DNA of 33,283 nucleotides from a virus, in the IMG/VR virus record IMGVR_UViG_3300047284_000322, positions 1 to 33,283 of that record. One strand, 5' to 3'. Below, piece after piece: positions 2,632 to 24,622 of the stretch. Below the pieces are notes generated by a model. That model searched no databases. It saw only the letters and a program-made list of their open reading frames with translations, and had not been told where the DNA came from. Position 1 is the first letter of the stretch; every line of letters begins with the position of its first letter. The position numbers and the translations under genes were made by a program.

Positions 2632-2639
2632 GGTAGACC

Positions 2640-3350
2640 ATGGCTGTCACCGTACAAAGCGTTATTGACCGAGTTCAAAAGACCCTGCAGGACACCACGG
2701 GTGTTCGTTGGCCAGTGGTGGATGAACTCGTACTCTGGGTCAATGATGCCCAGCGTGAAATCGCCCTTTTAAAGCCGGACGCTTCGGCTAAGAACACTAC
2801 TATTACCCTCGTAGCCGGTACCAAGCAGGAGATCCCTAGCGACGGTAATCGACTTCTTCGCGTTGTCCGAAATATGTCCGCCGCTACAAACGGCGTAGGC
2901 AAACGAGCTGTCCGTATTGTTTCGCGCGAAGTGCTCGATGCTCAGACTCCAGACTGGCACGACCCGCTCGTAGCCGGTGATGCTTCGCATGCTGCGGTTA
3001 TCAAACATTACATCTACGACGAGGCAAACCCACGTAACTTTTACGTGTACCCCGGCGTTGCGTCGCCAGCAGCGTCGTACGTAGAGATTATTTATTCGGC
3101 TAATCCGACCACGGTTGCCCAGAACGGGAACTTAGATATCCCTGATATCTTTGCAAACGCCGTGATGAACTACGTCCTCTATATGGCGTACATGAAGGAC
3201 GCTGAGTATGCTGGTAACCAGCAGCGGGCTTCTTCTCACTTCCAGCTGTTTATGTCTTCCATCACCGGTAAGGCGCAGCTAGACGCTATTACTTCGCCTA
3301 ACTTCGACGCTAGCCGACAAGTAACGTCTGTCCCAGCTGTAGCGGGGTAA
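2640..3350 (+). CDS. Putative head-tail adaptor (DUF6682-like)
   Basis: This 236-residue protein begins MAVTVQSVIDRVQKTLQDTT, then VRWPVVDELVLWVNDAQREI, a pattern typical of phage adaptor proteins that sit below the portal ring: an N-terminal helix pair with a W.....L..W.N.AQ.EI motif. Further on are a beta-rich middle with FYVYPG near residue 138 and a helical C-terminal third (VMNYVLYMAYMKDAEYAGNQ) ending in a flexible tail. I associate this pattern with DUF6682, whose exact role is inferred from gene order (capsid, small protein, adaptor, tail tube). TGAGGT at 2629-2634 gives its ribosome-binding site. Confidence 0.75.
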   Translation: MAVTVQSVIDRVQKTLQDTTGVRWPVVDELVLWVNDAQREIALLKPDASAKNTTITLVAGTKQEIPSDGNRLLRVVRNMSAATNGVGKRAVRIVSREVLDAQTPDWHDPLVAGDASHAAVIKHYIYDEANPRNFYVYPGVASPAASYVEIIYSANPTTVAQNGNLDIPDIFANAVMNYVLYMAYMKDAEYAGNQQRASSHFQLFMSSITGKAQLDAITSPNFDASRQVTSVPAVAG

Positions 3351-3356
3351 TAACTC

Positions 3357-4040
3357 ATGGCGCTCTATGAGTCGCTCCTGCCAGAGATCATCCCGATGGT
3401 GCCGGGTTGCCCCGACACGCTTATCGAGAACAATATCCGCGCAGCGGTTATTGAGCTCTGTGAGAAAGCGGCCGTCCTCCAAGCAGAGCTAGATCCTGTT
3501 ACCACGATTGCTGGCATCTACGAATACGATCTTGAGCCGCCTACCGATACGGTAGTGCACAAGATCATGTGGGTAGTTCATGACGGCAAAGAGATTGAAC
3601 CAATCAGCACTAATCTCTTAGAGCAACGTAAGCAGAACTGGCGTGACGCCGACAATCGTGGAACTCCGGAGTACTTCGTAAAGACCAGTCAGTCACTGTT
3701 TTGGATGGTGCCGGTACCCAACGAAACTAAAGCGTCTAGCACCATTTTGCGGGTGCAGCTGAAACCCACTCAAACTTCTACCACCGCTGATGACGAGCTG
3801 ATGTCGGAGTACCGCGACACCATCGTCAACGGTGCTCTGTTTCGTTTATTGCGTTTGCCTAGCAAAGACTGGACTGACTTTGCTGGGGCACAGGTGTACG
3901 GGTCTTTGTTTGCTGAGGGCATAGCCCAAGCAGACAGACGCGCACGAAACGCTGATGCAGGAATTGCTAGGAAGGTAGCGTATGGCGGTATTCACTCCTC
4001 TTTCTCACGGCGCAGAAACAGGTACGGTAGCGGCGGTTAA
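3357..4040 (+). CDS. Putative head-tail connector / tail tube protein (227 aa)
   Basis: Residues 1-50 are helical (ALYESLLPEIIPMVPGCPDT, then ENNIRAAVIELCEKAAVLQ). A beta-rich core follows (YEYDLEPPTDTVVHKIMWVV; YFVKTSQSLFWMVPVPNE) and a helical end with LFRLLRLPSKDWTDFAGAQV. This layout resembles the short-tail adaptor and tail-tubular-A proteins of podoviruses, placed between portal and nozzle. The family is not certain from sequence alone. The last 59 bases also encode the start of the next gene in another frame, so the basic Arg/Ser tail (SSFSRRRNRYG) is under double constraint. Its ribosome-binding site is weak (GGGGT). Confidence 0.7.
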   Translation: MALYESLLPEIIPMVPGCPDTLIENNIRAAVIELCEKAAVLQAELDPVTTIAGIYEYDLEPPTDTVVHKIMWVVHDGKEIEPISTNLLEQRKQNWRDADNRGTPEYFVKTSQSLFWMVPVPNETKASSTILRVQLKPTQTSTTADDELMSEYRDTIVNGALFRLLRLPSKDWTDFAGAQVYGSLFAEGIAQADRRARNADAGIARKVAYGGIHSSFSRRRNRYGSGG

Positions 4041-4437: not shown

Positions 4438-5219
4438 GCAGCAAACCAAAGGCAGCAGACTATAAGCCAAGTGAAGCTGAAAAAGCTTCCGCCTCAGTTG
4501 CTATGGCGGAGTACGAGTACTTCAAACAGAAGTACGATCCGTTGCTGCAGGAGATGCGCGATAAATCGCTAACCGAAGACGTACAGTCCAGTCTTCGTGG
4601 CCGTGCTAACGCAGACGTTATGCAGGCAATCTCTACGCCTAGCCTTCAACAAGCCACTAGCAGCACTGCTGCTAGCGATATGGCGCAAGCACTGACTAGC
4701 CAACTTAACACCGCTAACGTTTCGGCCAAGCAAGTTCAGAATACTATGCAGACAGGCGTACTCGGCACTGCTCGCGGGCAAGCTGCTGACGCTCAATCCG
4801 GCATGGCTCAAGCTAGTCGGCTAGCTACGTCCTCTGCACTGGAACGCGCTCGCGCCAATCAGCAGGTAGCTCAAGCTAAGCAAACTGCTGCTGCCCAGAT
4901 AGCATCGACCGCTATTGCTCAGGCTGGCGAAAACATCGCTAGCGGCGGTAAATGGTATGCTCCAAAAGACGCTAAAACCGGCCAGTTAGTTACCGGCGTT
5001 GGCGATCGGTTACGCTACAGTACGTACGGAAGCACTACGTATGGGCAACAAAACCAACCTCAGTCGTTAGGTGGTACGTCATTATTCGTACCTACTTCTC
5101 CACTTGGGTTTTATTCTCCTACCGGAGGAGCTTCTGCTTTTAATGCAGCCACCCCGACTGTTAAAAAGTCTGATCTTGTTTCTACACCAGTAGTTGGCAT
5201 GTTTGCTCCGCGAGGCTAA
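4434..5219 (+). CDS. Ala/Gln-rich internal virion protein (261 aa)
   Basis: I chose ATG 4434, which overlaps the upstream stop as ATGA, over an in-frame start at 4398. From the later start the protein reads MSSKPKAADYKPSEAEKASA, a start I recognise from internal virion proteins of aquatic podoviruses. Residues 15-185 are almost wholly helical and rich in Ala and Gln (QQATSSTAASDMAQALTSQL). The last 75 residues are Gly/Ser/Thr-rich and less ordered. It probably packs in the head core or ejection apparatus in the place of T7 gp14. The assignment rests on composition, position and start motif. Confidence 0.7.
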   Translation: MSSKPKAADYKPSEAEKASASVAMAEYEYFKQKYDPLLQEMRDKSLTEDVQSSLRGRANADVMQAISTPSLQQATSSTAASDMAQALTSQLNTANVSAKQVQNTMQTGVLGTARGQAADAQSGMAQASRLATSSALERARANQQVAQAKQTAAAQIASTAIAQAGENIASGGKWYAPKDAKTGQLVTGVGDRLRYSTYGSTTYGQQNQPQSLGGTSLFVPTSPLGFYSPTGGASAFNAATPTVKKSDLVSTPVVGMFAPRG

Positions 5220-5836: not shown

Positions 5837-8119
5837 ATGGCTGACAATATTGGTAGCGCAATCCTGGCTGGTATCCAAGGTGTGCAACAAAACGCACGCC
5901 AGCGGCAGGCTATGCTTTTGCAAGAACAAGAGTTAGATCTGGCGCGTCAGCGTTCAGCTCGAGAAGACGAACAGCTAAAGATTCAGCAACAACAACTTGC
6001 TATCAATCAAGACGTAAATGCTAGAGCGCAACAGCAGCAGACTGAGTTGTCGCGTACAAACGCAAAGACTCGTCTAACGGAAGACTCTGACCGCGTGTTT
6101 GGCAGAGCGCAGAGCCTTGGCATCATCAAGCGCGATGGCAGTATTGATCGTGAGGCTTTGGCAAAAGGTATTAAGAGCGGCGACCGTCAGTACATCGGCG
6201 TTGTTGCCGACATCCTGAACGTTAACAAAGCAGAAGAGAATTTAAACCGTGGGAAGTTTGACCCTACAGACTTCCGATTTACTGGGGTAGATCCAGAAGC
6301 CTTGAAGCAAGGCAGACTAATTGCTACCGGGCAATATAGCGACGGCCGTCAGGGAGTGTTTACCGCACAGGGCGGATCTGAGCCAAATGAGAATGTGATC
6401 AATACGTCTATCGACGAAGGCGTTGATCTTGCTATTGAAGCGCTTCAGATGCGCGTTATCCCTAACTCAAACATGGGAGCAACTAGCGCCGAGTCTCGTT
6501 TGAATGTCGGAAGAAACGTTGGCGGAACTATTGCCGACGCGTTTAGCAACGTGTCTCCAGTGTACGCCCGCCAAAGCGGCGCACGTACAGTTATTAATGC
6601 TATAGATGCCAGCGGATTACCAGTAGAAGCAAGTCGCACGGTTATCGCACAGCTTGCTGCTATTAAAGACCCTAAGCAGAAGCAGGAGTTTCTTTGGAAC
6701 TTGTCCAGAGAACTCGGCGTAGAAGCAGAGGTTAAAACCCAAGGTGGTTTTTCGTCGTCAAGACTTGGTTTGGACGACCAAAAAACAGAAATTGCTGGCG
6801 TTGCTGAGTTCTCTGGCATAACTGTTACAAAATCAAGCGATGCTATTCGTGGCTTTGATACGCAAATTAGTAAAAAACGAGCTCAGGCAGACAAACTACC
6901 GATTAACTCTCTTGCAAGAGAACGACTTGAGAATGATATTACAGACTTAAACACCCGTCGCGGCGAGTTTATCCGTGGTGAAAACGAACGCGTTTGGACT
7001 GGTTTTGAAACAGAAAGCAAACGTATTAAAGAAGCCTCTGCTCGTCCAAATGCTACCGCAGAGACAAAGAGCTTTTGGACTAAAAAACAGCAAGACTTGG
7101 ACGCAAAGAAACAAGCATTCATTAAGGCAGGCGGCTACACGCCTGTTATGCGTACCACTGATTATGCTGCGCTAGAACAAAACGTGCTGTCTAAAATCAA
7201 ACAACTGTCGCCCGGCGAAATTGCTGCAGCAGTTCAGAACGGGCAGCTTAAGTTCTCTGAGCCAGAAGTACGTGCCATGCGCGCAAGGCTTTCTGAGTCC
7301 GGGGCCGGTTCGGTTAACGCGGTTGCAAAGGCGCATCCAAAAGAAGAGATCATTGGATCATTTGCTATTGCTTATGCGCAGTCTACTAACCCAGCGCAGC
7401 AACAAAGTCTTCTTACTATGATTGCCAACACCGCTGAAACTGGTAGCCCGTTCTTAAGTGACGCAGCTCGTCGCGAAATGGATCTACAAGAACAGCGTAT
7501 GGCGGTTGATCTTGAGACAGCGCGCCTTCGCGCAAGCACGTCCGCTAACGAAGTTAAGCTTGCAAATATACAGGCTTTAGACAAAACGCTTGTTGAGAGC
7601 GGCAACAATCTTAATCGTACCGAAGATGGTAAACCCGTAAAAACAACTCTAGACGATGCTCGTAGATGGGCTATTGTATCTCAGCCTAGAAACCAATTTG
7701 TTATAGGGCAAATGGCTCGACTAGATCCTGTTGCTGCCCAGCAAGCGTATAAAGTGCATATTGGGCAGGCTTCACAGGCAGCTGCTACCATATTTGACGA
7801 GATGCCTAGCGGTGGTTTTTTAGGCCCGGCTAAAGACGTCCTTTATTCTTGGTTTGGCGACAAACCTACCGTAGATTCTATGGCGCAGCGTTTAGAAAAT
7901 GTACGAGTTATTAAAGAAAAAGGAAGCGACGGAGTAGAGCGCGTAAAGTCACTATATCTCGTTAATAGAAGCACTGGCCGACAACAGGGCAAAGAGTTGA
8001 CCGCTTCTCAGATCCAGAACATGGATGGCGGTCCAGAGTTGTTTGCGATCCTTTCAACAGCTGGTGTGATCAACGATAACATAGCTTCATCTCGTGCCGC
8101 CGCTAACGCTAAGCAGTAA
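5837..8119 (+). CDS. Large internal virion / ejection protein, gp15-like (760 aa)
   Basis: The N-terminal 25-85 region is a Gln-rich coiled coil (RQRQAMLLQEQELDLARQRS; EQLKIQQQQLAINQDVNARA). Long helical stretches follow, with many Ala, Gln and charged residues and no membrane segment. Size and place (after two small internal proteins, before a giant one) match the gp15 component of T7-type ejection complexes, which builds a tube across the periplasm. The coiled-coil start is common in this class. Apart from length and layout there is no diagnostic motif, so the homology is inferred. The start has TGAGGT nine bases before ATG 5837. Confidence 0.72.
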   Translation: MADNIGSAILAGIQGVQQNARQRQAMLLQEQELDLARQRSAREDEQLKIQQQQLAINQDVNARAQQQQTELSRTNAKTRLTEDSDRVFGRAQSLGIIKRDGSIDREALAKGIKSGDRQYIGVVADILNVNKAEENLNRGKFDPTDFRFTGVDPEALKQGRLIATGQYSDGRQGVFTAQGGSEPNENVINTSIDEGVDLAIEALQMRVIPNSNMGATSAESRLNVGRNVGGTIADAFSNVSPVYARQSGARTVINAIDASGLPVEASRTVIAQLAAIKDPKQKQEFLWNLSRELGVEAEVKTQGGFSSSRLGLDDQKTEIAGVAEFSGITVTKSSDAIRGFDTQISKKRAQADKLPINSLARERLENDITDLNTRRGEFIRGENERVWTGFETESKRIKEASARPNATAETKSFWTKKQQDLDAKKQAFIKAGGYTPVMRTTDYAALEQNVLSKIKQLSPGEIAAAVQNGQLKFSEPEVRAMRARLSESGAGSVNAVAKAHPKEEIIGSFAIAYAQSTNPAQQQSLLTMIANTAETGSPFLSDAARREMDLQEQRMAVDLETARLRASTSANEVKLANIQALDKTLVESGNNLNRTEDGKPVKTTLDDARRWAIVSQPRNQFVIGQMARLDPVAAQQAYKVHIGQASQAAATIFDEMPSGGFLGPAKDVLYSWFGDKPTVDSMAQRLENVRVIKEKGSDGVERVKSLYLVNRSTGRQQGKELTASQIQNMDGGPELFAILSTAGVINDNIASSRAAANAKQ

Positions 8120-8127
8120 CTAAACGC

Positions 8128-11100
8128 ATGGCCGAAAGAACATCAGTCCTTCCGGAGCAAGAGGATCAGTTCACGTCTTTTTTACGGGACGTATACTCAT
8201 CTACTCCAGAGGAAGACGCACAGTTCCAAAGATTTGCTTCTGGGGAGAACGCTCCTCAGTTACCAACTGCGCCTGGCAATCTGCAAGAAGTGTTTAGCGC
8301 CGGTATTGAGTCCGGTGTTCAAGGGCTGGCAGCGGATCTTGAATACTTTAAAGCGCTTGGCAATACCCTTATGGGGGACGAACAAGCCGCCGCTTTAAAC
8401 ATCCAAGAGGCTCGACTCCGTGAGGAGTTTGCTGCAGCGCCAGTAGAAGGTCTCGATACGTTTGAGCAGTTCTTAGACCAGCCAACATTTGGCGGGTTTA
8501 TCGAGCAGGCGACAAAAAGTTTTGGCCAGGTTCTACCATCAGCTGCGCTATCTATAGCGGGTGCCGGTACCGGTGCTATCACAGCCGCCGTCGGCCGTGG
8601 CGTACTTAATCAGGTCAACAAGCAGGTTGCCAAGCGAATCATAAAAGACTCCGTTGAGCGTACTGCCAACGGCGTTGCTGATCCTGTCGAACAACAAATT
8701 GCAGAGCTGGCTTATGGTTCTCTCCGCACGGCCGCTAAACGTGGCGCTATCGGTGGCGCATTCGCTGCCGAATATGCGCCTATGTCGGGTAGCAATTTGT
8801 CCGAGGCTCTCGAAGCCGGACAGCCACTTGACCAGGCCAACGCGCTACGGGCCGCTGCTATCGGCATCCCGCAAGCAGCAATCGGCGTCGGTAGTGAGTA
8901 TGCATTACTTAAGTTGATCGGAGAGCAAGCCACCAAGCGTGCCGCTGTTGAAGGCGGCGTATTCGCCAACTTTGCGAAGCGCCTTGGAACAGGCGCTCTA
9001 CAAGGTGGCGCTATCGAAGCCACCACTGAAGTCGCTCAAGAAGGTATTAGCGTCTTAAATCGTGCTGACCTAGACCCGCTCTTTACTGCCGAAGACGCCA
9101 AGATGCGTCTCGCAGAAGCTGCGTTTGCTGGCTTCTTTGGCGGCGCTGCTCCTGGCGGTGCTGGTGGCGCTATAGGCGGAACGCTAGACGCTGTATCGTC
9201 TATGAAGCCTGGCCAAGGAGTGCTTACTAATGTAGGCAACATTGTAGAAAAGGCTAAAGGCTTCCTAGAAACAGCTCGTGGTCAACGCGTTGATCAGCAG
9301 ATCAACAACGAGCAGTTCGGCGATGTGGCGGCTGGCTTAACAACTCCCGAGTCTGAAGGCGACATTGACGCTCAGCTCCGTGCGATGGTTGATCCGTCTA
9401 GCGGCAAAAAAGCCGTGTGGATTGCTGGTGCCGCTCCAAAGTTTAACGCTACGCAAAACCGGGTTAAGACGGCTAGCATTAATGGAACACTGGCATATTC
9501 AGCGTTCGTACCTGGCCGAGGTACGATCGTATCTACGAACGAGGATGTGGTTCGCGAAGTTATCGCAGCCGGTGCATCAGATAAGGCCTTGCAGATCGCC
9601 CTCGGTTACAGCGCCGTCAAAGACTATTCTGCCCCTGGTGACATTGTTGTTCAGGCACTCGACCGTAACGGTCGGGTCATCTCTGAAGAAGTCACGTCGC
9701 CAGAGGGGGTAAGTGCTGCTTTCGAAGCCGCTCGTAATCTGATGCCCGAAGGTGGCAGCATCCAACAGACTACTGTCGAGAAGGCGCTCGAAGATCGTAA
9801 GCGCCGCTTTGAGTCGGAGCAGCGAGTCGAGGTTCGTGACATCGATCTGTCCGACGAACAGACCGACGAGACAGACGCCAACCAAGTAGAGATGTTCGGC
9901 CAAGGCGTGCAAGCCGTAGAAGGGCAACGCACAGTTGTTCGAGCGTATGGTCGTAAGACTGACCCGAACCGAGTGTTTGATAACACACAGTCCGCCCGTG
10001 CATCTTACGACGCGGTGTTTGGTGAGACTAACTGGGCAAACCCTCGCTTCGCGTCTATGACTGAAGCGATGCTCAACGCCGCCGTAAATGAGCAGCGAAG
10101 TAACCCAGACTCAGCTGTATCTATTGAAGATACACCCGATGGCGGATACCAAATTGTCCGCGATGATTTTGGCGATTTGTTCCGCTCGATTGACACGGCG
10201 GGTAACGAAGTACGTCTAAATCTCCCAGAGTTTTTACGCTCCGCCATACAGAGAGCACGACGTAGTAAATATGCTCGGGGCTCTAGAGTTACTATTTCTG
10301 GGCCAGACGGGAAGAAATCAGCTGTCAACCTTGTTGACCTAACTGCGGCTGGGCAGCGCTTACTCGAAGGTCGCTCCGAGTCGGCTGGATTTCAGTTACG
10401 CCAGGACCGCCAAGGCAACGTATTCATGGCTCCAGAGGCCGCAGCCCGTGCTGGGCTGCTAGAGCTGCTTGGGGATTTACTAATTGATGGCTATGAAGTT
10501 CAGGTTGACGGGCAGTCCTTATACGACTTATTGCGCGCTACTACAGGCAAGAGCAAAACCGAAGCGCAGAAAGTTTCAAACCGCCTAGACAATCTAACTG
10601 CTGCGATAGTCGGCGGCACGCAGCGTTCATTAGGAACATTACTCAGACTAGACGTTACGGAAAAGAAGCGTAGTTCACGTCCTACTTGGCAACAGCTTTC
10701 TACTGGCCTTGAACTTCAGCGACAACGTGATCTAGTTGAAAGTCTTCCAGAGAACTCTGAAGAGAGAGCTAGCGCCGAGCAAGTTCTTGCTGCTATGGAA
10801 GCAGACCCAAACTTTAACCCAAACGCGGTTGAGGTTGCTGATCCTAACGCGCCAGGAGGGTTCAGAGAGCGGGATCAACAAGGACAGGAGGTCGCGGACG
10901 GTCGTACCGAAACGGAGCGGATGATCGAATCGAGCGTTACGGGCGGCGAGCTCCCAACGCCGATGAATATTGACACGCCGCGCTCAGCTATTGATCTGCG
11001 CGCTGGTCGTGCTCCTACTACTGTAAGCCCGTTGGCCGAAAGACGCTCAGCGCAAGAGCGTATCTCTAACGCCATCAACAGCATGGTCGGCGATATTGTT

Positions 11101-13740
11101 CGCGATCTGTTTGACTCGCTCAAGTTTGCCGACCCGCCGCATATTTTCACGTTCGCTGAACTCACAGCTATGTCGGATGACCAGCTGTTGCAGCTGTTTG
11201 GTGGCGCGTTAAATCCAGTACGTGAAGCAATTGCTAGCATGCAGAACAGCTCCACCAAGATGGGCATGCATATTTCTGGGCAGTTCGGAAAGATAATCAT
11301 CCTTCGAGAGTCCGGCAACGTACTGCAAGACGCTCTTGTTATCGCGCACGAAATTGGCCACAGCCTCTACAAAGAGGAGCGGAATAAAGCGCTTGAGAAC
11401 TCCGCTATTCGTAAGCGGCTCTTCAAGGCTTACCAGTCCTCACCGTCGTTCAAAGACCTGAAGGACAAATATGGATTTGATCTCGGCTTTGAAGAGTGGT
11501 TCTCTGACCAGGTGGCCTTGTGGGCTAACAAGCGGTACAGAAGCCGTCAAAAGGCTGATAGTCTTGTTAAGAAGTTCTTCAAGGACTTTGCGGCTCGCCT
11601 TGAGTCGCTCTGGAAGCAGACATCGGAGTCTTTCCGTAAACGGTTTGGCGGACGACTTGGAGCCGTCAACGAAGACTTCGAGACGTTCATGGACGCTGTC
11701 CTTGAGTCCAGAAAGTCACAAGTAAAGGAAAACGGCTTATCCTTTACTGAGCGAGCGTTCGTATACGAGCTGAACGACCTTAATATAGCCAACGGCGGCG
11801 CAGCCCGAGCGGCTCACTGGCAGTCGAAGATCTCGCAGCTTAAGAAGAGCCCCTACGTCAAACCTATCCTTCGGCTTGTATCTACGGCTGACGGTATCCT
11901 GCGTATGTACGCCGGTAACGAAATAGCGGATATGTTTTATGTACGGGCCCAAGATCCGACCGGCAAAGGCCGTCTTGGCTTTGTGCCGCAATCGGCCCGT
12001 ACGTTTGACTTGTATAAGAACCGACTTGATACGGAGTTAGGGTCATTTGATGATCCGGCTCTGGACGCAGAGTTTGATAAAGCAGCGTCAGACACGCCGA
12101 CTGCACAGTTGACCGGTAAGGCGCTGGCTATCCGTCAGTTCCTTGAGGACTTTTACTCAGAATACGTCAGCCCATCGAAAACTAAGATCGGCTTCCAGCG
12201 CGACTACTTTCCGCGTCTGCTTGACCTTGTGGCTATCTCAAATGACCCGCAAGCATTTGTCGATTTGATTCTGCAGGCCGACCCAAGTGCAAACCGCGCA
12301 AAGATAACTAGCAGAGTTCAGAAGCTCGTAGACCTTCAGCAGGCGGTAACCAACGGTACCGACGTAGAAGGCAACCCGTTGGACCCGGCTGCTAGCGTTA
12401 ACGAGGCGCTTGAGTTAACGAAGAACTTAACTCGCCAGCAGCTCCGCGATAACGGCTTTTTGCTCCCGCCAAAGCAAGCGTTCTCTGAGTACGTCCGCAA
12501 GGTCATAAAGCGCGTCGAGTTTGACCGTGCTACCAAAGATGATCAGGGAAATGATCGCCTCAAGCCGCTGCTCGATGCTCTTGCACCGGAGGATCGCGAG
12601 CAGGCGCTGCAGGTCATCAACACCTACATGGGTTACCGTGCTCCTCTCAGCCCGTTCTGGCGAAAGCTGAACAGCTGGGGGCAGTTCATTCAGTTCGTGA
12701 CGATCCTGCCGTTTGCCGCAATATCGTCTGTAACCGACCTGGCTGGCCCGATTATCGCGTCAAAAGAGTTCGGTGATCTGACGACTGGTATGAAAGAGGT
12801 TGTCGCGACTATCAAAAACCGTGAAGAGGCCAAGCAGTTGGCTCGCGACATCGGCGTCGTTACGCCAGAAGCCGTGGCTAACGCGTGGATCACTGACGCG
12901 GACGCTGATTACATGGACCCGACCGTTCGTAAGTGGTCAGACACTTGGTTCTCGATGACCGGCTTGAACTGGTTCACTCGGTTCACTCGTGAGTTTGCAA
13001 CCGGCATGGGCGTGCAGTTCATTACGAAGCACGCACGTAACGAGTTCAACAACCCGCGATCGGACCGGTATCTCGAGGAGCTTGGTCTGACCCGAGCCGA
13101 TGTAACGAGCTGGCTCAACAGTGGCCGTAAGCTTTCGACTCCAGAAGGCAAGAAGGTCACTCAGGCGCTACAACGGTTCGTTGAATCTTCGACGCTGCGT
13201 CCTAATGCTGCAGAGCGACCGGTGTGGGCGTCCGATCCGCACTTTGCTTTGATATGGCAGCTGAAGGGTTACTTCTACTCATACGGTAAAGTCATCCTCG
13301 GCGGCATGTTCTCAGAGGCCGAAACCCGGCTTCGTGAGCAGAACATTGGAACTCCATGGCAGCGCGTTGGGTCTGCAGCTGGATTGCTTGCGCTTACTGC
13401 GGTAGCGACTATGCCGCTGGCCATGCTTGGCATGGAGCTTCGCGAGTACGCAAAGTTTGGCTTGGCAGCTTTCCTACCGTTCGTCGAAGCCGATCAGAAA
13501 TATTTTAAAACTGATCGTATGGACTGGTCTGAGTATCTCGGAACGGCTTTTGAGCGGTCAAACTTTAGCGGGCCGTTTGGGCTAGCTACAGGTGCTTCAA
13601 ACGCTGCTAACTTTGGCGACAGCCCACTGTTTACGCTTCTTGGACCCACGACAGAGACTATCGATACCGCTATGACTAATGGCTGGCGGATAGACCGGAC
13701 GTTGAAAGACCGGCTGCTGCCAATTTATAACCAGCTGTAA
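8128..13740 (+). CDS. Giant ejection protein with HExxH metallopeptidase motif (1870 aa)
   Basis: This is the last and largest internal virion protein, in the position of T7 gp16. Residues 125-370 hold Gly/Ala-rich hydrophobic stretches (SAALSIAGAGTGAITAAV; FAGFFGGAAPGGAGGAIGG). A zincin motif HEIGH lies at residues 1074-1078 within VIAHEIGHSLYKEERN, and a Glu-rich EEWFSDQVALWANK follows at 1122-1135 and could supply the third zinc ligand. Near the C-terminus are hydrophobic segments at about 1517-1550 (FIQFVTILPFAAISSVTDLA) and 1750-1790 (GLLALTAVATMPLAMLGMEL). No lysozyme/transglycosylase motif of the T7 gp16 kind was recognised at the N-terminus, so peptide cleavage may replace glycan cleavage during DNA entry. 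That role is inference. The start has no clear ribosome-binding site. Confidence 0.85.
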   Translation: MAERTSVLPEQEDQFTSFLRDVYSSTPEEDAQFQRFASGENAPQLPTAPGNLQEVFSAGIESGVQGLAADLEYFKALGNTLMGDEQAAALNIQEARLREEFAAAPVEGLDTFEQFLDQPTFGGFIEQATKSFGQVLPSAALSIAGAGTGAITAAVGRGVLNQVNKQVAKRIIKDSVERTANGVADPVEQQIAELAYGSLRTAAKRGAIGGAFAAEYAPMSGSNLSEALEAGQPLDQANALRAAAIGIPQAAIGVGSEYALLKLIGEQATKRAAVEGGVFANFAKRLGTGALQGGAIEATTEVAQEGISVLNRADLDPLFTAEDAKMRLAEAAFAGFFGGAAPGGAGGAIGGTLDAVSSMKPGQGVLTNVGNIVEKAKGFLETARGQRVDQQINNEQFGDVAAGLTTPESEGDIDAQLRAMVDPSSGKKAVWIAGAAPKFNATQNRVKTASINGTLAYSAFVPGRGTIVSTNEDVVREVIAAGASDKALQIALGYSAVKDYSAPGDIVVQALDRNGRVISEEVTSPEGVSAAFEAARNLMPEGGSIQQTTVEKALEDRKRRFESEQRVEVRDIDLSDEQTDETDANQVEMFGQGVQAVEGQRTVVRAYGRKTDPNRVFDNTQSARASYDAVFGETNWANPRFASMTEAMLNAAVNEQRSNPDSAVSIEDTPDGGYQIVRDDFGDLFRSIDTAGNEVRLNLPEFLRSAIQRARRSKYARGSRVTISGPDGKKSAVNLVDLTAAGQRLLEGRSESAGFQLRQDRQGNVFMAPEAAARAGLLELLGDLLIDGYEVQVDGQSLYDLLRATTGKSKTEAQKVSNRLDNLTAAIVGGTQRSLGTLLRLDVTEKKRSSRPTWQQLSTGLELQRQRDLVESLPENSEERASAEQVLAAMEADPNFNPNAVEVADPNAPGGFRERDQQGQEVADGRTETERMIESSVTGGELPTPMNIDTPRSAIDLRAGRAPTTVSPLAERRSAQERISNAINSMVGDIVRDLFDSLKFADPPHIFTFAELTAMSDDQLLQLFGGALNPVREAIASMQNSSTKMGMHISGQFGKIIILRESGNVLQDALVIAHEIGHSLYKEERNKALENSAIRKRLFKAYQSSPSFKDLKDKYGFDLGFEEWFSDQVALWANKRYRSRQKADSLVKKFFKDFAARLESLWKQTSESFRKRFGGRLGAVNEDFETFMDAVLESRKSQVKENGLSFTERAFVYELNDLNIANGGAARAAHWQSKISQLKKSPYVKPILRLVSTADGILRMYAGNEIADMFYVRAQDPTGKGRLGFVPQSARTFDLYKNRLDTELGSFDDPALDAEFDKAASDTPTAQLTGKALAIRQFLEDFYSEYVSPSKTKIGFQRDYFPRLLDLVAISNDPQAFVDLILQADPSANRAKITSRVQKLVDLQQAVTNGTDVEGNPLDPAASVNEALELTKNLTRQQLRDNGFLLPPKQAFSEYVRKVIKRVEFDRATKDDQGNDRLKPLLDALAPEDREQALQVINTYMGYRAPLSPFWRKLNSWGQFIQFVTILPFAAISSVTDLAGPIIASKEFGDLTTGMKEVVATIKNREEAKQLARDIGVVTPEAVANAWITDADADYMDPTVRKWSDTWFSMTGLNWFTRFTREFATGMGVQFITKHARNEFNNPRSDRYLEELGLTRADVTSWLNSGRKLSTPEGKKVTQALQRFVESSTLRPNAAERPVWASDPHFALIWQLKGYFYSYGKVILGGMFSEAETRLREQNIGTPWQRVGSAAGLLALTAVATMPLAMLGMELREYAKFGLAAFLPFVEADQKYFKTDRMDWSEYLGTAFERSNFSGPFGLATGASNAANFGDSPLFTLLGPTTETIDTAMTNGWRIDRTLKDRLLPIYNQL

Positions 13741-17288: not shown

Positions 17289-17501
17289 ATGTCACAAGTA
17301 ACTCTTAGAAACGTCAAAGGATCGCCGCTGACCAATGCGGAGGTTGACGCGAACTTCTCGAACTTGAATAGCGACAAGTCGGAGAAGTCGGCCAACCTCA
17401 GCGACCTCACTAGCGCGAGTACCGCCCGGACTAATCTGGGCGTGTACTCAAGCGCTGAGGTGGACAGCCAGGCGATCGCGATGGCTATCGCGCTGGGGTA
17501 A
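17289..17501 (+). CDS. Short tail-fibre stalk-like protein (70 aa)
   Basis: The product starts MSQVTLRNVKGSPLTNAEVD, then ANFSNLNSDK, and has a SANLSDLTSASTARTNLGVY repeat module typical of phage tail-fibre stalks. The RNVKGSPLT..EVDANF start is familiar from separate or fused fibre N-termini in many phages, probably the part that docks on the tail. AAGGAAG lies upstream of the ATG. It is very short for a fibre and may work together with the two following proteins. It ends four bases before the next ATG. Confidence 0.72.
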   Translation: MSQVTLRNVKGSPLTNAEVDANFSNLNSDKSEKSANLSDLTSASTARTNLGVYSSAEVDSQAIAMAIALG

Positions 17502-17504
17502 TAC

Positions 17505-17831
17505 ATGGCTTTCAAATCGATCGCATTGCCGAGCATCGGCACATCGGGATCGCCCTCGACGCTCACTGCCACGGTACAGGCTGGACAGACCCAGACCCTG
17601 ATTGGGTTGGCGTTCGCCAACACCAGCGCCGTGAACGTGACGGTCTCGGCGAAACTGAATAAGAGTGGCGGCGCATCTGCGTTCCTGATCAAGGACGCTC
17701 TGGTACTTCCAGGCGGAGCGCTGGCGGTGGTAGGCGGCGATCAGAAGCTGGTGCTCGAGACGGGTGACACGCTCACCGCGTACGCGAGCGCTGGCAGCTC
17801 AGTCGATGCCACTCTGTCTTACCTCGTCTGA
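17505..17831 (+). CDS. Small beta-rich virion protein (108 aa)
   Basis: The protein reads as a small beta-sandwich. It starts MAFKSIALPSIGTSGSPSTL, then TVQAGQTQTLIGLAFANTSA, VNVTVSAKLN, a strand with FLIKDALVLPGGALAVVGGD and DTLTAYASAGSSVDATLSYL. I recognise this family from phage tail regions (I.LAFANTSA..VTV, LPGGALAVVGGDQK), where it is annotated as structural or fibre-associated. It lies between the stalk-like gene and the LamG giant. The later pair 24341/24634 repeats the same arrangement before another adhesin. The TGA stop is part of TGAGGA before the next gene. Confidence 0.72.
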   Translation: MAFKSIALPSIGTSGSPSTLTATVQAGQTQTLIGLAFANTSAVNVTVSAKLNKSGGASAFLIKDALVLPGGALAVVGGDQKLVLETGDTLTAYASAGSSVDATLSYLV

Positions 17832-17841: not shown

Positions 17842-20800
17842 ATGGGTTATATCGGTAACGCTCCGTACAGCGGACTGGTCACTGGCGACAACGTCCTCGA
17901 TGGCTCGATCAAGGCCGAGGACCTCGCACCAGGAGCAGCTGTCCCCAGTCAGACCGGCCAGTCCGGTAAGTACCTGACCACCGACGGCACGAACGCATCG
18001 TGGGGAGCGATCGTTACCGGTGTGCGCGTCTCGGGTATCACCTACTCTGGCGACGACCTCGCAACGAGCCCCAACGGCGGACAGACGGTCACGCTTAACG
18101 GATCGGGGTTCGTCTCGACGCCGACCGTGTTCGTCGACGGTACGATTGCACCGTCGGTATCCTTCGTGTCCTCGTCGCAGATCACGTTCGTGACCCCTGC
18201 CAAGAGCGCGGGCACCTATCACGTCTATGTCGTCAATCCGGACGGCAGCACGGCGATCTTCGTCAACGGCATTTCGTACTCGGGCGTGCCAACCTGGACT
18301 ACCGCTGCTGGCAGCCTCGGCACCTTCAGCGAGACGTTTAGCATTCAGCTCACCGCCACGGGCGATGCGCCGATCACGTACACGCTTACCACTGGTTCGT
18401 CGCTCCCGGCGGGCGTCACGCTCTCCTCGAGCGGCTTGATCTCTGGCACGGTCGGCACCGAGCAGACCTTCTCGTTCTCGGTCGATGCTATCGACGCGCA
18501 GAACCAGGAGACGCCCCGCTCGTTCTCGGTTTCGATCTCCATCTCGGATGCGTACTTCGAGTACACCACACTGCTGCTCGCTGGCTCAGGCGCAACGGAC
18601 AGCGCCTTCACTGACGCATCAACATCGAACCACCCGATCACTCTCAACGGCGACGTGGCTAACTCGACGTTCAGCCCGTACAACACGTCGTGGTCGAACT
18701 TCTTTGACGGTACGGGTGACTGGATAACGACGCCAAACGTATCGGCGTTTGATTTAAGCAGCTCATCCACCGATTTCACCATCGAAGCGTGGGTCTATAA
18801 CACGGGCGGCGGCGCATATCGCGGCATCATTGGCGCTCGTCAAGACGGTCAGACGCAAGGCTGGTGTTTATACATCCACCCGAACAATACCCTTTACCTG
18901 GGTAGCGTAATTGTCGGCAATGCTTACGCCGACAGACAGATGAATACGACGGTTATACCGCCCAACACGTGGGTGCACGTTGCGCTTGTTAAAACTTCCA
19001 GCGGATACACCGGCTACGTAAATGGCGTTGGCGGCACATTGCTTGCCCTGACTGGCGGCTTGCAGTATCAATCGGCGCAACCCGTTATTGTTGGCGCACT
19101 CGGTTCCCAAGGCGAATATCCGTTCCTCGGATTTATCAGTAACGCTCGTGTTGTAAAAGGCACGGCAGTCTACACAGCCAACTTCACTCCGCCGACCGCG
19201 CCTCTGACCGCGATTGCAAACACCTCGCTGCTGACCTGCCAGAGCAACCGCCTTCGCGACGCCAGCACCAACAACTTCGCGATCACCCGCAACGGCGACG
19301 TCGCGGTTCGAGCGTTCTCGCCGTTCACGGACACGGACACTACAACGGGGTCGGTGTACTTTGACGGTACTGGTGACTATCTCACGGTGCCGGACAACGC
19401 GGCGCTTGAGGTTGGAAGCAGCAATTTCACGTTCGAATGCTGGTTCTACCCGACTGCGTTGGCTACTGACAATATTCTCGTTGATTTTGGCAGCCAGGGC
19501 TCGCAAGCCTCTATCATACCGTTTTACGTTTTTTCAAACGGAAATGTCGGGTACTACGTTTCGAGCGGAGGCAGCACATGGAACATAGCCAGTAATGCAA
19601 ACGGCTACGGTGGAACCGTCAAAATTGGACAGTGGAACCACCTCGCTTTTGTGCGTAACGGAAATACGTTCACCCCATATTTGAACGGCGTTGCAGGAAC
19701 AACTACAACTAGTTCCTCTTCGGTCAATGACCCTGCCGTAAGTAAGTACATTGGCTCAGCAACGACTGGAACCGCTGGTATCACTGGCTACCTTGCAGAC
19801 TTTCGGCTCGTTAAGGGTACAGCTGTCTACACGGCCAACTTTACCCCGCCAACCGCCCCTCTGACGGCGATCACCAACACCTCGCTGCTGACCTGCCAGA
19901 AGCGCGGCCCGGCGCGTAACTCGAGCTTCCTCGATACTGGCCCGCATAAGCACCTGATCACCCGCAACGGCAACACGACGCAGGGTACGTTCTCGCCGTT
20001 CTCGCCGACCGGTTGGGGTATGAACCAAACGGTCTCGTCTGACTACTTAGGCTTCACAACGTCTGTTGGAACTGCGTTTCAGTTTCCCGGCGATTTTACG
20101 ATTGAGTGTTGGGTTTTCCCTACGGCATACAGCGGGACCGGAGACACCTCTGCATGGGTAGTCTCTGATAACACAAACTATCTCGCGCTCAATTATGACG
20201 GGTCTGGTAACTACAACATCTACTTGAACTCGGGCAGTCCAACGTCGTTCGCGTCGGGAATTGTGACGAATCAATGGAACCATATCGCTATGGTTCGCAA
20301 CGGTTCAACTGTCACGCTTTACACAAACGGCACATCAAGGGGGGCCATAACTAATAGCTCAACCCTAGGTTATGCAAACCCGCCAGTTGCAAGAAATGGT
20401 GGCGGCGTAAGCGGCACGACAAGGTACATGAGTAATTTGAGAGTCGTTAAAGGCACGGCTGTTTATACGGCTAACTTTACGCCACCGACTACACCATTAA
20501 CGGCGATTACCAATACTCAGTTATTGACACTCCAATCAAACCGATGGATTGACAATAGCCCCAACAACTTTACAGCAACGGTTACAGGTTCGCCGTTAGC
20601 CCAGGCTTTCAGCCCGTTCAACCCCACGGCAGCGTGGAGTGCAGCGACGAATGGCGGGAGCGGGTTTTTCGATGGGACTGGGGATTATATACAGGCAGCT
20701 AATAGTCCGGCGTTTGCATTTAATACTGGTACGTTTACCGTGGAATTTTGGTACTACCCAACAAAATCACCTGATCAATGGGATACGTTGTTTGGTAGCA

Positions 20801-21771
20801 GCGGTAACGCCGGGATCTTCTTTGCGTGTAGAAGTGGGTTTTTAGATTGGACGAATAACAACGATAACGCTGCTCTCATTCGGTCCAATTGGCCGACGCT
20901 ATTCCAATGGAATCATATTGCGCTTGTGCAAAATGCAAGCAGCAGATCAGTTTTTATTAACGGCGTTCGAACTGGGACAGCAGGAACATACAGCTGGGAG
21001 CAGGGCAGCGTCACTTTAGGGAATGAATCGTCTGGGTATTTCTCAGACTGGCGTGTTGTACTGGGTCAAGCGATCTATGATCCCGGTTCAACCACAATAA
21101 CAGTTCCTACTGCCCCCCTCACCGCAACCACCAACACCTCGTTGCTCTGCAACTTCACCAACGCAGGCATATACGACGCTACGTCCAAGAACGACCTTGA
21201 GACGGTGGGCAACGCGCAGATCACCACGGCCCAGAGCAAGTGGGGCGGGTCGTCGATGTATTTCGACGGAACAAGTGACGCGCTTTATATTCCAGCAAAT
21301 CCCGATTTTGCTTTTGGAACGGGCGATTTCACGGTTGAGTGTTGGATCTACACGTCAGAAACAACTGCAGATACGTTTTATCGAAGAATTTACATGACAG
21401 ACGGCCCAACTGGAAATGTAAGCGGCAACTTCCAGATTGCACTCGTGCCGACTACTGGCTATGTAAATTTATGGGATGGAACACTGGATTTGATTGGAAC
21501 TAGCAATGTTTGTAATGGAGCATGGCACCACATTGCTGCAACGAGATCAGGCACAATACTTCGCCTTTTTGTTGACGGAGTTCAGCAAGCATCAACTACT
21601 TATTCGGTGAGTGTGTCTCCGAATAGCGGAAAGCCTAGGCCATACATTGGAACATTTAATGGCTCTTCTGGTGACTTTAACGGCTATATCCAAGATATGC
21701 GCGTAACCAAAGGCTACGCCCGCTACACCGCCAACTTCACCCCGCCGACTGCGGCGTTCAAGCTGCGCTAA
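17842..21771 (+). CDS. Giant multi-LamG tail adhesin with TIG and Ig-like domains (1309 aa)
   Basis: The start MGYIGNAPYSG is a fibre-anchor motif, followed by a linker with GKYLTTDGTNASWG. Residues about 60-150 form an IPT/TIG domain (GQTVTLNGSGFVSTPTVFVD). Residues 151-233 form a putative-Ig type domain (SLPAGVTLSSSGLISGTV). Five concanavalin/LamG-like domains follow, at about 237-453, 507-673, 733-883, 941-1091 and 1138-1309, each with FDGTGDY or similar, DFT.E.W and W.H.A..R. Most end in VVKGTAVYTANFTPPTAPLT. LamG domains bind sugars, so binding of host polysaccharide is likely but inferred. Domain cores are lower in GC than several linkers. Confidence 0.88.
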   Translation: MGYIGNAPYSGLVTGDNVLDGSIKAEDLAPGAAVPSQTGQSGKYLTTDGTNASWGAIVTGVRVSGITYSGDDLATSPNGGQTVTLNGSGFVSTPTVFVDGTIAPSVSFVSSSQITFVTPAKSAGTYHVYVVNPDGSTAIFVNGISYSGVPTWTTAAGSLGTFSETFSIQLTATGDAPITYTLTTGSSLPAGVTLSSSGLISGTVGTEQTFSFSVDAIDAQNQETPRSFSVSISISDAYFEYTTLLLAGSGATDSAFTDASTSNHPITLNGDVANSTFSPYNTSWSNFFDGTGDWITTPNVSAFDLSSSSTDFTIEAWVYNTGGGAYRGIIGARQDGQTQGWCLYIHPNNTLYLGSVIVGNAYADRQMNTTVIPPNTWVHVALVKTSSGYTGYVNGVGGTLLALTGGLQYQSAQPVIVGALGSQGEYPFLGFISNARVVKGTAVYTANFTPPTAPLTAIANTSLLTCQSNRLRDASTNNFAITRNGDVAVRAFSPFTDTDTTTGSVYFDGTGDYLTVPDNAALEVGSSNFTFECWFYPTALATDNILVDFGSQGSQASIIPFYVFSNGNVGYYVSSGGSTWNIASNANGYGGTVKIGQWNHLAFVRNGNTFTPYLNGVAGTTTTSSSSVNDPAVSKYIGSATTGTAGITGYLADFRLVKGTAVYTANFTPPTAPLTAITNTSLLTCQKRGPARNSSFLDTGPHKHLITRNGNTTQGTFSPFSPTGWGMNQTVSSDYLGFTTSVGTAFQFPGDFTIECWVFPTAYSGTGDTSAWVVSDNTNYLALNYDGSGNYNIYLNSGSPTSFASGIVTNQWNHIAMVRNGSTVTLYTNGTSRGAITNSSTLGYANPPVARNGGGVSGTTRYMSNLRVVKGTAVYTANFTPPTTPLTAITNTQLLTLQSNRWIDNSPNNFTATVTGSPLAQAFSPFNPTAAWSAATNGGSGFFDGTGDYIQAANSPAFAFNTGTFTVEFWYYPTKSPDQWDTLFGSSGNAGIFFACRSGFLDWTNNNDNAALIRSNWPTLFQWNHIALVQNASSRSVFINGVRTGTAGTYSWEQGSVTLGNESSGYFSDWRVVLGQAIYDPGSTTITVPTAPLTATTNTSLLCNFTNAGIYDATSKNDLETVGNAQITTAQSKWGGSSMYFDGTSDALYIPANPDFAFGTGDFTVECWIYTSETTADTFYRRIYMTDGPTGNVSGNFQIALVPTTGYVNLWDGTLDLIGTSNVCNGAWHHIAATRSGTILRLFVDGVQQASTTYSVSVSPNSGKPRPYIGTFNGSSGDFNGYIQDMRVTKGYARYTANFTPPTAAFKLR
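19219..19243 (+). repeat. 25-base direct repeat in LamG linker 1
   Basis: These 25 bases, beginning AACACCTCGCTG and encoding part of NTSLLTCQ, recur exactly at 19876-19900 in the next linker of the same gene. The surrounding linkers are also similar but not identical. Confidence 0.85.
19876..19900 (+). repeat. 25-base direct repeat in LamG linker 2
   Basis: This is the second exact copy of the 19219-19243 repeat, 657 bases further on. The pair encloses one LamG-like domain, so recombination between them would remove or swap exactly one domain in frame (657 is a multiple of three). Confidence 0.85.
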
Positions 21772-21780: not shown

Positions 21781-22971
21781 ATGGCATACATCGGCAACGC
21801 ACCAGGGTTCTCTACGCAGCGCGTCGTAACCACGTTCACGGCAACCGCGGCTCAGACCTCGTTTTCGCCTAACGGCGGATACGTCCTCAACTACGTCGAC
21901 GTGTACTACAACGGCGTTAAGTTGGTGGCTGGTGACGACTTTACGGCTACAAACGGCACATCTATTGTATTGACAGTTGCCGCCTCTGCTGGCGACGTAG
22001 TAGAGGTTGTGTCGTACATTCCTCGCGGCCTCTCTGATGGCTACACGAAGGCAGAAGCTGACGACAGATTCGGCACGCCGAGTTATATCGACTTTGATAC
22101 GGCGGCAGTTGTAACGCCTGCTGTTGGCCGCATGGGGTGGGACCCGGACGCTGGCACCGTATCTCTTGGCCTAACCGGTGGAAACGTATCTTCTACCGTT
22201 GGCCAAACGCTACATGCATATGTCACTAACGCCGAGTCTGTAACGATCACCAAAGGTCAGGCGGTATACCTGTATCAGGCTCAGGGCGATCGGGCGACAG
22301 TAAAGCTGGCGTTTAATACTTCTGATGCAACATCGGCAAAGACTTTTGGTCTTGCCGCTGAAAACATAGGCGCGAATCAGACAGGCTACGTTATTTGCCA
22401 AGGCGTACTAAGTAATATAGATACATCCGCTTACACTGGCGGAGCAACTCTTTACCTTGGAAGCACTGCTGGGTCGCTAACAACGACTAAGCCAGTAGCG
22501 CCAAACCACTTGGTTTATATCGGCGTTGTCGAAAAAACCAATGCTGGCGGCGGTCAGATCTACGTTCGCCCGCAAAACGGGTACGAGCTGGATGAGATTC
22601 ACGACGTACTGATTACGTCCCCTGCTAATGGGCAGATACTCGTTTACGACGGCTCCACTAACTTATGGAAAAATCAGGCCCCGGCTGGCGGTCTGCCAGA
22701 TTTAGTAGTCGTCTCTGGCACTACGCAAGCAGCCGTCGCTAACAAGCACTACGTTTTGACTAACGCTGCTACCACGACCGTCACACTTCCGGCTTCTCCG
22801 GCGGCTGGCGCGGTCGTGTGGGTCACGGTAGCCAACGGGCGCACGGATAATGTTGTTGCCCGCAACGGCTCCAACATCAACAGTCTGGCCGAGGACATGA
22901 CTATTGACCAGGCGTACGCAGGTATACAGCTGCGTTATGCCGACGCAACAAGAGGTTGGATCTTCACATGA
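21781..22971 (+). CDS. Tail fibre protein with YIGNAP start (396 aa)
   Basis: The start MAYIGNAPGFSTQRVVTTFT is followed by a beta-rich domain (YVDVYYNGVKLVAGDDFT) to about residue 80, then the stalk motif DGYTKAEADDRFG. The central part (TNAESVTITKGQAVYLYQAQ; KTFGLAAENIGANQTGYVIC; IYVRPQNGYELDEIHDVLIT) belongs to a type often seen in tail fibres of cyanophages and other aquatic phages. The C-terminal 100 residues form another beta domain ending GIQLRYADATRGWIFT. It shares its first residues with the LamG giant, which suggests the same docking site. AGAGGCAC precedes the ATG. The stop overlaps the next ATG as ATGA. Confidence 0.82.
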   Translation: MAYIGNAPGFSTQRVVTTFTATAAQTSFSPNGGYVLNYVDVYYNGVKLVAGDDFTATNGTSIVLTVAASAGDVVEVVSYIPRGLSDGYTKAEADDRFGTPSYIDFDTAAVVTPAVGRMGWDPDAGTVSLGLTGGNVSSTVGQTLHAYVTNAESVTITKGQAVYLYQAQGDRATVKLAFNTSDATSAKTFGLAAENIGANQTGYVICQGVLSNIDTSAYTGGATLYLGSTAGSLTTTKPVAPNHLVYIGVVEKTNAGGGQIYVRPQNGYELDEIHDVLITSPANGQILVYDGSTNLWKNQAPAGGLPDLVVVSGTTQAAVANKHYVLTNAATTTVTLPASPAAGAVVWVTVANGRTDNVVARNGSNINSLAEDMTIDQAYAGIQLRYADATRGWIFT

Positions 22972-23909: not shown

Positions 23910-24341
23910 ATGGGGCTTTACGCAGTTATTAAAGGCACTGTCGTTGACGGGATTGCTGTCGCTGACGCGCCGCTAGAAACAAATGATTCGTGGGTTTGCA
24001 TCGACGAGGTTGACCCACGTCCAGGTCCATATTGGACGTACGTCGACGGCGTGTTTTCTCCGCCTGCACCTCCTTCGGAGCCTGTGCTTCCCAACATCAT
24101 CAGCAAGGTCGCATTCCGCTTCCGTATGACTGACGCCGAGTACGTCGGTGTTCTGAACGCGGCCAAGACCGACGTTGAGGTCCAGGCCTGGGTAGAGACA
24201 TTCAACATGGTTACCCGGATTGATCTCGACAGTCAGCGCACTGTCGACGGACTTAACGTCCTGGTCAGCAAAGGTCTGCTCACACAAGAGCGGGCTACTG
24301 AAGTGTTGTCCACTCCTGTGTCAGATGGAGAGCGACCCTAA
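23910..24341 (+). CDS. Putative adhesin assembly/accessory protein 1 (143 aa)
   Basis: The protein starts MGLYAVIKGTVVDGIAVADA, then PLETNDSWVCIDEVDPRPGP and YWTYVDGVFSPP, a compact beta domain of about 55 residues. The helical C-terminal part reads KVAFRFRMTDAEYVGVLNAA and VNVLVSKGLLTQERATEVL-like (NVLVSKGLLTQERATEVL). Such C-terminal segments occur in phage fibre assembly-type proteins. The N-domain is almost repeated in the protein at 26147, which also follows a Gly-rich adhesin. That pairing suggests a dedicated chaperone or cap. Function is inferred. TGAGG before the ATG is formed with the upstream stop. Confidence 0.7.
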   Translation: MGLYAVIKGTVVDGIAVADAPLETNDSWVCIDEVDPRPGPYWTYVDGVFSPPAPPSEPVLPNIISKVAFRFRMTDAEYVGVLNAAKTDVEVQAWVETFNMVTRIDLDSQRTVDGLNVLVSKGLLTQERATEVLSTPVSDGERP

Positions 24342-24622
24342 TGTCCCGAGCTAGAACGCTTGCCAGTGCTATCGGTTCCGACGGTGCGCTTAACGTAGGC
24401 GACGTCGCGGGGCTGCATACAGTTGCTACTACTGGCGCTTATAATGACTTGACTGGCAAACCAGCTCTACATGCTGTCGCCACAAGCGGCGCATACGCAG
24501 ACCTTAGTGGTACACCTACGCTCGCCACGGTCGCAACGAGCGGGTCTTACAACGACCTGACCAATAAACCCACGGGCGGTGGTACGCCCGACTTCGTTCT
24601 TTCTTCCTACGGACTCGTCTGA
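24341..24622 (+). CDS. Stalk-type fibre protein with 18-residue repeats (93 aa)
   Basis: ATG 24341 overlaps the previous stop (TAATG). After about 24 residues (SRARTLASAIGSDGALNVGD) there are three 18-residue repeats (LHTVATTGAYNDLTGKPA and two close copies). The end is GGGTPDFVLSSYGLV. Repeats of the AYNDLTGKP type are well known in tail fibre stalks. As a stand-alone 93-residue protein it is short, and probably forms a small trimeric connector. It occupies the same relative place as the 17289 gene before another large adhesin. Confidence 0.75.
   Translation: MSRARTLASAIGSDGALNVGDVAGLHTVATTGAYNDLTGKPALHAVATSGAYADLSGTPTLATVATSGSYNDLTNKPTGGGTPDFVLSSYGLV
24413..24574 (+). repeat. Three 54-bp coding repeats (AYNDLTGKP type)
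   Basis: Three consecutive units of exactly 18 codons: LHTVATTGAYNDLTGKPA, LHAVATSGAYADLSGTPT and LATVATSGSYNDLTNKPT. The VAT-G-Y-DL-P skeleton is kept in all three. Confidence 0.85.

Follow-up and report, generated by a model that had tools for sequence, protein, structure and literature searches.

The locus studied here raises the question of whether single domains of a phage adhesin can be exchanged through the linkers that separate them. The DNA analyzed is the 33,283-base IMG/VR virus record IMGVR_UViG_3300047284_000322 (hereafter the window, W), whose LamG gene (17842-21771, + strand) consists largely of alternating linkers and LamG domain cores. An earlier note, made from the sequence alone, proposed that the cores are exchanged through conserved linkers. 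The main point of this proposal was supported by alternating composition with steps at the linker borders, by the gain, loss, and replacement of domains between near-identical phages (the window and locus L041), by the sharing of single cores, and by breakpoints in linkers. In our reading, LamG cores are exchanged domain by domain, as cassettes, between phages at conserved linkers, and the gene product is an adhesin of the phage virion, of fibre or baseplate type, in which LamG (ConA-like) jelly rolls form an array. The probability of these two statements together is roughly 0.84.

Layout and composition of the LamG gene

The window carries head, internal-virion, and tail genes, as indicated by PHROGs matches. 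The LamG gene encodes 1309 amino acids and was matched to structural (virion), baseplate-wedge, and unknown PHROGs families, none of them named gp37 or gp38. The five LamG domains described in the earlier note were recovered as five stretches of Pfam PF13385 (Laminin_G_3; E = 1.1e-81, 272.8 bits, compared to a curated cut-off of 27.6). The cores (W C1-C5) and linkers (W L0-L4) are listed below, with G+C content at third codon positions (GC3).

17842..18063, + strand: N-terminal anchor (MGYIGNAP...), GC3 0.72; the first ~24 codons are common to close relatives even where the remaining gene is replaced
18064..18279, + strand: IPT/TIG domain (Pfam PF01833, E 1.5e-8), GC3 0.83
18280..18552, + strand: Ig-like region, named from a reading of the sequence and with borders set by eye, GC3 0.84; aligns with L041 up to 18530
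18553..18702, + strand: linker 0, GC3 0.80
18703..19137, + strand: LamG core 1 (PF13385), begins with FDGTGDW, GC3 0.59; DNA match to L041 not above chance
19138..19356, + strand: linker 1, GC3 0.77; first copy of a 25-base repeat at 19219-19243; ~80% identity to L041 linker 1
19357..19797, + strand: LamG core 2, GC3 0.53; 69% protein identity to a core of locus L099; covered with its flanks by an AlphaFold model
19798..20013, + strand: linker 2, GC3 0.81; second copy of the 25-base repeat at 19876-19900
20014..20433, + strand: LamG core 3, without the FDGTGD motif, GC3 0.55
20434..20664, + strand: linker 3, GC3 0.53; 5′ half GC-poor, 3′ half GC-richer, with up to 94% identity to the 3′ half of L041 linker 1
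20665..21075, + strand: LamG core 4, GC3 0.45; recurs in locus L003
21076..21258, + strand: linker 4, GC3 0.75; up to 95% identity to L041 linker 2
21259..21693, + strand: LamG core 5, GC3 0.37, the lowest of the cores
21694..21771, + strand: conserved C-terminal tail (half a linker, FKLR, and stop), GC3 0.84 over the C-terminal 25 codons; L041 is ~92% identical again from 21676

The AlphaFold model of core 2 and its flanks was built with 88 aligned units. Core 2 was modeled with a mean predicted local distance difference test score of 83, as a jelly roll located between YFDG and ...RLVKG, and the first ~43 residues of the construct, comprising most of the linker, were low-confidence coil. A Foldseek search with the core 2 model returned LG/LNS domains (PAPP-A, perlecan LG3, and neurexin; E 1e-8 to 1e-5, query template-modelling score ~0.4-0.6). 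The conserved linkers are ~70-85 codons long, separate cores of ~135 residues, and in the model take in the first and last strands of the jelly roll, which is opened by the FDGTGDYL motif. The linker consensus, NLRIVKGTAVYTSNFTPPTAPLTAITNTSLLTCQ..., is not glycine-rich.

The alternation of base composition had been described from single 60-base lines, with 38 G+C at 19201-19260 and 37 at 21181-21240 (linkers) and 25 each at 19501-19560 and 20701-20760 (cores). All four counts were exact when repeated, and linker 3 had rightly been singled out as an exception, with a GC3 of 0.53 and only its 3′ half GC-richer. Pooled over the gene, GC3 was 0.72 in linkers and 0.50 in cores. This difference of 0.227 was reached by 0 of 5000 synonymous shuffles, the largest shuffled difference being 0.116. 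The alternation is therefore not an effect of amino acid content. When the linker mask was shifted circularly, which keeps the autocorrelation, the true placement ranked 39 of 1047, and 15 of 1047 after amino acid correction. The alternation is thus significant also by this test, but less extreme than by shuffling.

The exact 25-base repeat reported for linkers 1 and 2 (657 bases apart and in frame) was confirmed and is the longest exact repeat in the gene. Because a repeat of this length was reached in 2 of 300 synonymous shuffles, it represents moderate evidence when taken alone, and it was rejected as stand-alone proof. Of the 41 residues that are the same in linkers 1 and 2, 26 also have the same codon, which is above the other linker pairs.

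Replaced cores, shared cores, and breakpoints

Eleven loci carrying the upstream 501-amino acid gene were aligned to the window, and in 10 of them the LamG part had no nucleotide match. In relatives at ~92% identity (L032 and L042-L047, several of which are near-copies of one another), other fibre types take the place of the LamG gene after ~24 codons, which indicates that whole fibres are exchanged as well. Translation of L042, L049, and L032 showed that the replacement fibres are Gly-rich or repeat-type. Two neighbouring fibre genes of the window start, at 17842-17912 and 21781-21810, with the near-identical peptide M(G/A)YIGNAP. Because this short anchor is kept where the fibres of L042, L049, and L032 are replaced, it also serves whole-fibre exchange.

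Locus L041 has a backbone ~92-96% identical to that of the window, and its LamG gene keeps the N-terminus and the last codons. The layout is the same as in the window up to 18530 and from 21676 on, but L041 has three LamG domains compared to five. Compared in 63-nucleotide (nt) windows, the cores of L041 matched W mostly at chance level (best of all positions 0.41-0.63), and its linkers reached up to 0.95. The linkers were 80-97% identical to those of the window at the DNA level, and several matched a linker at another place in the order. The linker that precedes the first LamG domain of L041 matches the 3′ part of W linker 2 (19957-20018; 96.8% over 62 nt). L041 linker 1 best matches W linker 1 in its 5′ part and W linker 3 in its 3′ part, with the switch half way, and L041 linker 2 matches W linker 4. 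The comparison with related phages that the earlier note had proposed as a check thus revealed single LamG cores that were gained, lost, or replaced, with breakpoints in the linkers.

Single cores were also shared between arrays. We found 31 pairs, belonging to 18 core families, in which at least 85% of the core length aligned at 90-100% DNA identity, with identities of 0.30-0.55 for both neighbouring cores. The latter values are near chance for this alignment, although the neighbours are still LamG homologues at the protein level. For 10 of 18 representative pairs, there was no nucleotide similarity outside the LamG gene. The best protein match was located inside the same gene for only 5 of 422 cores, and core 4 of the window was close to a core of L003 (80.4% DNA identity over 332 nt, 87.5% protein identity). 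The relationships among cores therefore do not follow whole-gene descent. The other DNA matches between L003 and the window were short linker pieces only. Cores 1 and 2 of the L095 open reading frame (ORF) 1657-3916, the only within-gene pair listed (90.8% DNA identity over 414 nt), represent a recent in-array duplication.

In-place diversification of the cores by point mutation, as in an arms race, with structurally conserved linkers and no exchange, would fit the observation that the cores of W and L041 are equally alien in DNA to each other and to all others. However, the backbones of these two phages are 92-96% identical and yet carry five and three domains, and cores of unrelated phages are 90-100% identical in DNA. 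L041 and the shared cores refute this explanation unless the contigs are artefacts, and we give it almost no weight. Such artefacts could arise if assemblers, misled by repeated linkers, fused cores that belong to different phages. Nearly every record is a metagenome assembly, linkers are repeats, and 3 of the 18 core families are 100% identical. However, the remaining 15 families differ by 1-10% in the core, which indicates that the copies have diverged, and exact repeats in the window gene do not exceed 25 bases. Moreover, the isolate cyanophages Syn1 and S-RIM32 have, in one LamG gene, a linker of 78.8% identity and a block of 93% between stretches without similarity. Assembly chimeras are therefore a very unlikely source of the pattern. 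The isolate pairs S-RIM44/Syn1, S-IOM18/QB2, QB2/WH25-B, and two S-CAM8 strains were too alike in the LamG gene to reveal core swaps.

The estimated breakpoints of the shared-core pairs were located in linkers in 36 of 36 cases. Of 18 five-prime breakpoints, seven coincided with the FDG motif (FDGT/SGDY) that is common to most arrays, 31-37 nt ahead of the start of the core. We also used blocks shared at 90% identity or more over at least 120 nt, a set that is not conditioned on a shared core. Linkers make up 35% of the arrays, so 35% of the block ends would be expected there; 179 ends were found in linkers and 25 in cores. Many of these blocks consisted of the linker alone. Among blocks of at least 300 nt, 32 of 37 ends were in linkers, as were 30 of 32 for blocks of at least 400 nt.

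These breakpoints bear on an alternative in which recombination is random and selection alone shapes the outcome: crossovers occur anywhere, those within a jelly roll misfold and are lost, and linkers are permissive seams and not guides. The breakpoint pattern is what survives selection, and 25 of 204 block ends do lie in cores. Furthermore, the DNA of linkers from unrelated phages has often diverged beyond the reach of ordinary homologous recombination, as the best linker matches in other genes had a median protein identity of 71%. This alternative predicts, however, that breakpoints are spread over the whole unstructured linker, whereas 7 of 18 five-prime breakpoints sit on one motif, and the DNA of linkers from different phages can be 90-96% identical. 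We regard it as a serious contender with chances slightly below even.

Composition of linkers and cores across LamG arrays

A linker profile, first derived from the window and L041 and then extended, was used to scan every fetched locus. This gave 278 arrays, of which 212 remained after near-copies were removed by shared 6-mers; further relatedness among these arrays was not corrected for. The 212 arrays comprise 103 from gene and linker searches (including phage DSL-LC04) and 109 hold-out arrays from core and genome searches. ORFs with >5 X were left out. GC3 of the remaining ORFs at each locus served as the background, and 20 of 212 arrays were dropped because they had too little other coding sequence (n = 192). 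Arrays contained up to 12 linkers per ORF. The longest array seen was in L087, where two adjacent LamG-array ORFs have 11 and 7 full linkers. Linkers of this type were also present in L288, L289, L290, and L306, contigs that are binned as gammaproteobacterial, Woesearchaeota, and Rhodobiaceae metagenome-assembled genomes and are probably viral contigs or proviruses inside these bins.

Linker GC3 followed the local background with a slope of 1.00±0.05, compared to 0.45±0.03 for core GC3, and the result was the same at four-fold sites. Random background segments had a slope of 1.01±0.06 (n = 118), and the N-terminus of the same gene had a slope of 1.06±0.09 (n = 72); in the hold-out alone, the N-terminal slope was a noisy 0.54±0.14 (n = 43). 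In contigs with a GC content of at least 0.5, linker GC3 exceeded core GC3 in 48 of 48 arrays, including 18 of 18 hold-out arrays found by their cores. The same was observed in 38 of 40 arrays at GC 0.45-0.5 and in 31 of 48 at GC 0.40-0.45. In GC-rich contigs, the profile around linkers fell from ~+0.15 inside the linker to ~-0.16 in the core. The composition steps at linker borders are thus real in a full GC and codon analysis, also in the hold-out set.

A codon constraint intrinsic to LamG cores, such as slow translation or mRNA structure, could produce this alternation without transfer. Distantly and moderately related cores have the same slope of 0.4-0.5, as a constant constraint would give. 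However, cellular LamG domains followed the rest of their own ORF with a GC3 slope of 0.95±0.09 (n = 20, some rows being copies of one gene). This indicates that the LamG fold is not the cause of core composition, and intrinsic LamG codon bias was rejected as the main cause. The constraint also leaves the shared cores unexplained, and in AT-rich phages the cores are not below the linkers. Moreover, single cores carry the composition of another phage that holds them. We consider this explanation unlikely.

Among cores sharing at least 80% protein identity, GC3 followed the homologue (coefficient 0.85) and not the own genome (0.11). Linkers at 45-80% identity followed their own genome (0.93-1.01), and at 80% or more they followed both about equally (0.47 and 0.55). 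Core 1 of L101 joins the evidence from sharing and from composition: it is 98% identical to core 1 of L068 over 402 nt and has a GC3 of 0.22 against a background of 0.49, and the L068 core has 0.21 against 0.15.

Several results weigh against an exchange of cores between native linkers. In contigs with GC below 0.40 there was no step, as linker GC3 exceeded core GC3 in only 26 of 76 arrays. The composition step described in the earlier note is therefore strong in GC-rich phages but absent or slightly reversed in AT-rich ones. Over all genes, linkers were not significantly closer to the background than cores (distances of 0.075 and 0.087, p = 0.32; 0.074 and 0.073 in the hold-out, p = 0.42), because linkers overshoot the background in GC-rich phages. 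For linkers, too, the best protein match rarely came from the gene itself (4 of 365), and homogenisation of linkers within one gene was rejected as a general rule. The linkers are seams in that the breakpoints are located there, but they are more than native pieces: they overshoot the local background in GC-rich phages, move themselves, and are in some cases chimeric. Because the shared-core breakpoints come from pairs selected for a shared core, their positions are biased outwards; the shared-block set is free of this condition. Homologous cores at 30-60% identity also had a slope of 0.4-0.5 with no trace of the homologue, so the slope is set by slow or incomplete adaptation in general and not by recent transfer alone. 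Almost every array comes from a metagenome contig. Finally, there was no RecT, ERF, or RecA match in seven related or comparison records, several of which are fragments; other recombinase families were not sought.

The slope of distant cores, which have no memory of a particular homologue, fits a turnover in which a core is exchanged anew before it has adapted. A similar slope could come from a persistent partial constraint, but the slope of 0.95 for cellular LamG domains disfavours this.

Proposed exchange mechanism and known adhesin systems

In the proposed exchange of cores at linkers, co-infection or infection of a lysogen would be followed by recombination, with the crossover either between two similar linkers or at the FDGTGDY codons. 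Each such step would replace one core or change the number of cores, in frame. Jelly-roll cores would thereby pass between phages singly or in short runs, with crossovers in the conserved linkers and often right at the FDGTGDYL motif. Linkers would keep the resident codon composition, and cores would carry a composition averaged over the shared pool. The pathway may be homologous recombination, with the DNA similarity of the linkers itself guiding homologous or homeologous exchange by phage or host recombinases. Phage mosaicism is known to arise through relaxed homologous recombination that phage recombinases carry out (PMC3945230, attributed to De Paepe et al. 2014). Each core may bind a host glycan or another receptor, so that core exchange could alter host specificity.

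A broader version, for which we see even odds, is a pan-phage pool of interchangeable LamG binding cassettes, with the standard linker as adapter, the FDGTGDY codons as a specific crossover seam, and core turnover faster than adaptation. Cores that turn over before adapting would explain a core slope of ~0.4-0.5 across degrees of relatedness beside fully adapted linkers. If such a pool exists, an array could document which phages have recently encountered one another.

For tail adhesins, most known cases of modular exchange are swaps of tips or ends from a small number of model phages, and the motifs of T4-type adhesins are short glycine-rich stretches within one tip protein. In T4-type gp37/gp38, recombination at conserved motifs reportedly swaps specificity segments, a finding attributed to Tetart et al. 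1998 and Trojet et al. 2011. LamG arrays resemble this system in their way of working, not by homology, as conserved motifs flank exchangeable variable segments. They differ in that their linkers are not glycine-rich seams, that they have no homology to gp37/gp38 in PHROGs, and that whole jelly rolls of ~135 residues are exchanged across phages of differing GC, with a composition signature. In gp38, conserved glycine repeats flank hypervariable regions that serve as binding domains, as described in part of PMC6027323.

For receptor-binding proteins, the sections consulted of Smug et al. 2023 (PMC10684548) describe recent sharing of fragments at 70-90% protein identity or more across distant phages. 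The 18 LamG core families likewise show sharing between genomes, at 90-100% DNA identity. The mosaicism described in those sections involves N- or C-terminal swaps of non-homologous domains, whereas in LamG arrays homologous domains are replaced inside the array. A term search of the main text of that paper gave no occurrence of laminin, lectin, linker, or GC content. The swapping of adhesins at conserved motifs, in the T4 group, and the mosaicism of domains in receptor-binding proteins are already established. No report of LamG linkers as phage exchange seams, or of native linkers with pooled cores, was found in the open-access literature, judged mostly from listings. The replacement of whole cores and the shifted domain number also look unlike the adenine-directed mutation of a diversity-generating retroelement, although no search for a reverse transcriptase was made.

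The best isolate match was phage DSL-LC04 (OR003939.1, concanavalin A-like lectin/glucanase superfamily protein), with 80% of the query covered at 38% protein identity. It has the same linker/core array (GC3 of 0.47 in linkers and 0.27 in cores). However, the match starts at query residue 256, outside the anchor/TIG/Ig-like part, and the neighbouring genes are different. DSL-LC04 was also the one phage record found by nucleotide search with the LamG region (164 nt), which returned none in plasmids. The cyanophages Syn1, S-RIM32, S-RIM44, and S-IOM18 have the same linker type in LamG-containing virion/baseplate-wedge proteins, but mostly with one clear linker per gene.

The LamG seams are visible in raw composition, recur in >200 arrays, and divide a native scaffold from a shared core pool. 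The arrays offer a countable exchange unit and a quantitative signature, the two slopes, through which the turnover rate of adhesin domains and the contacts between phages become open to study.

Outside the LamG gene, a nucleotide search with window region 5837-13740 gave no match. Within the 5.6-kb gene at 8128-13740, a ~380-base stretch (10518-10896) was unmatched in close relatives with a spanning alignment; both of its sides matched, and the relatives hold a shorter stretch in its place. Window positions 24088-24435 matched L042 twice (17296-17643 and 20167-20335), and positions 24096-24241 matched L032 at 4547-4692, a stretch immediately ahead of the next fibre gene. The small fibre-associated genes around 24088-24435 thus appear to have been duplicated and moved.

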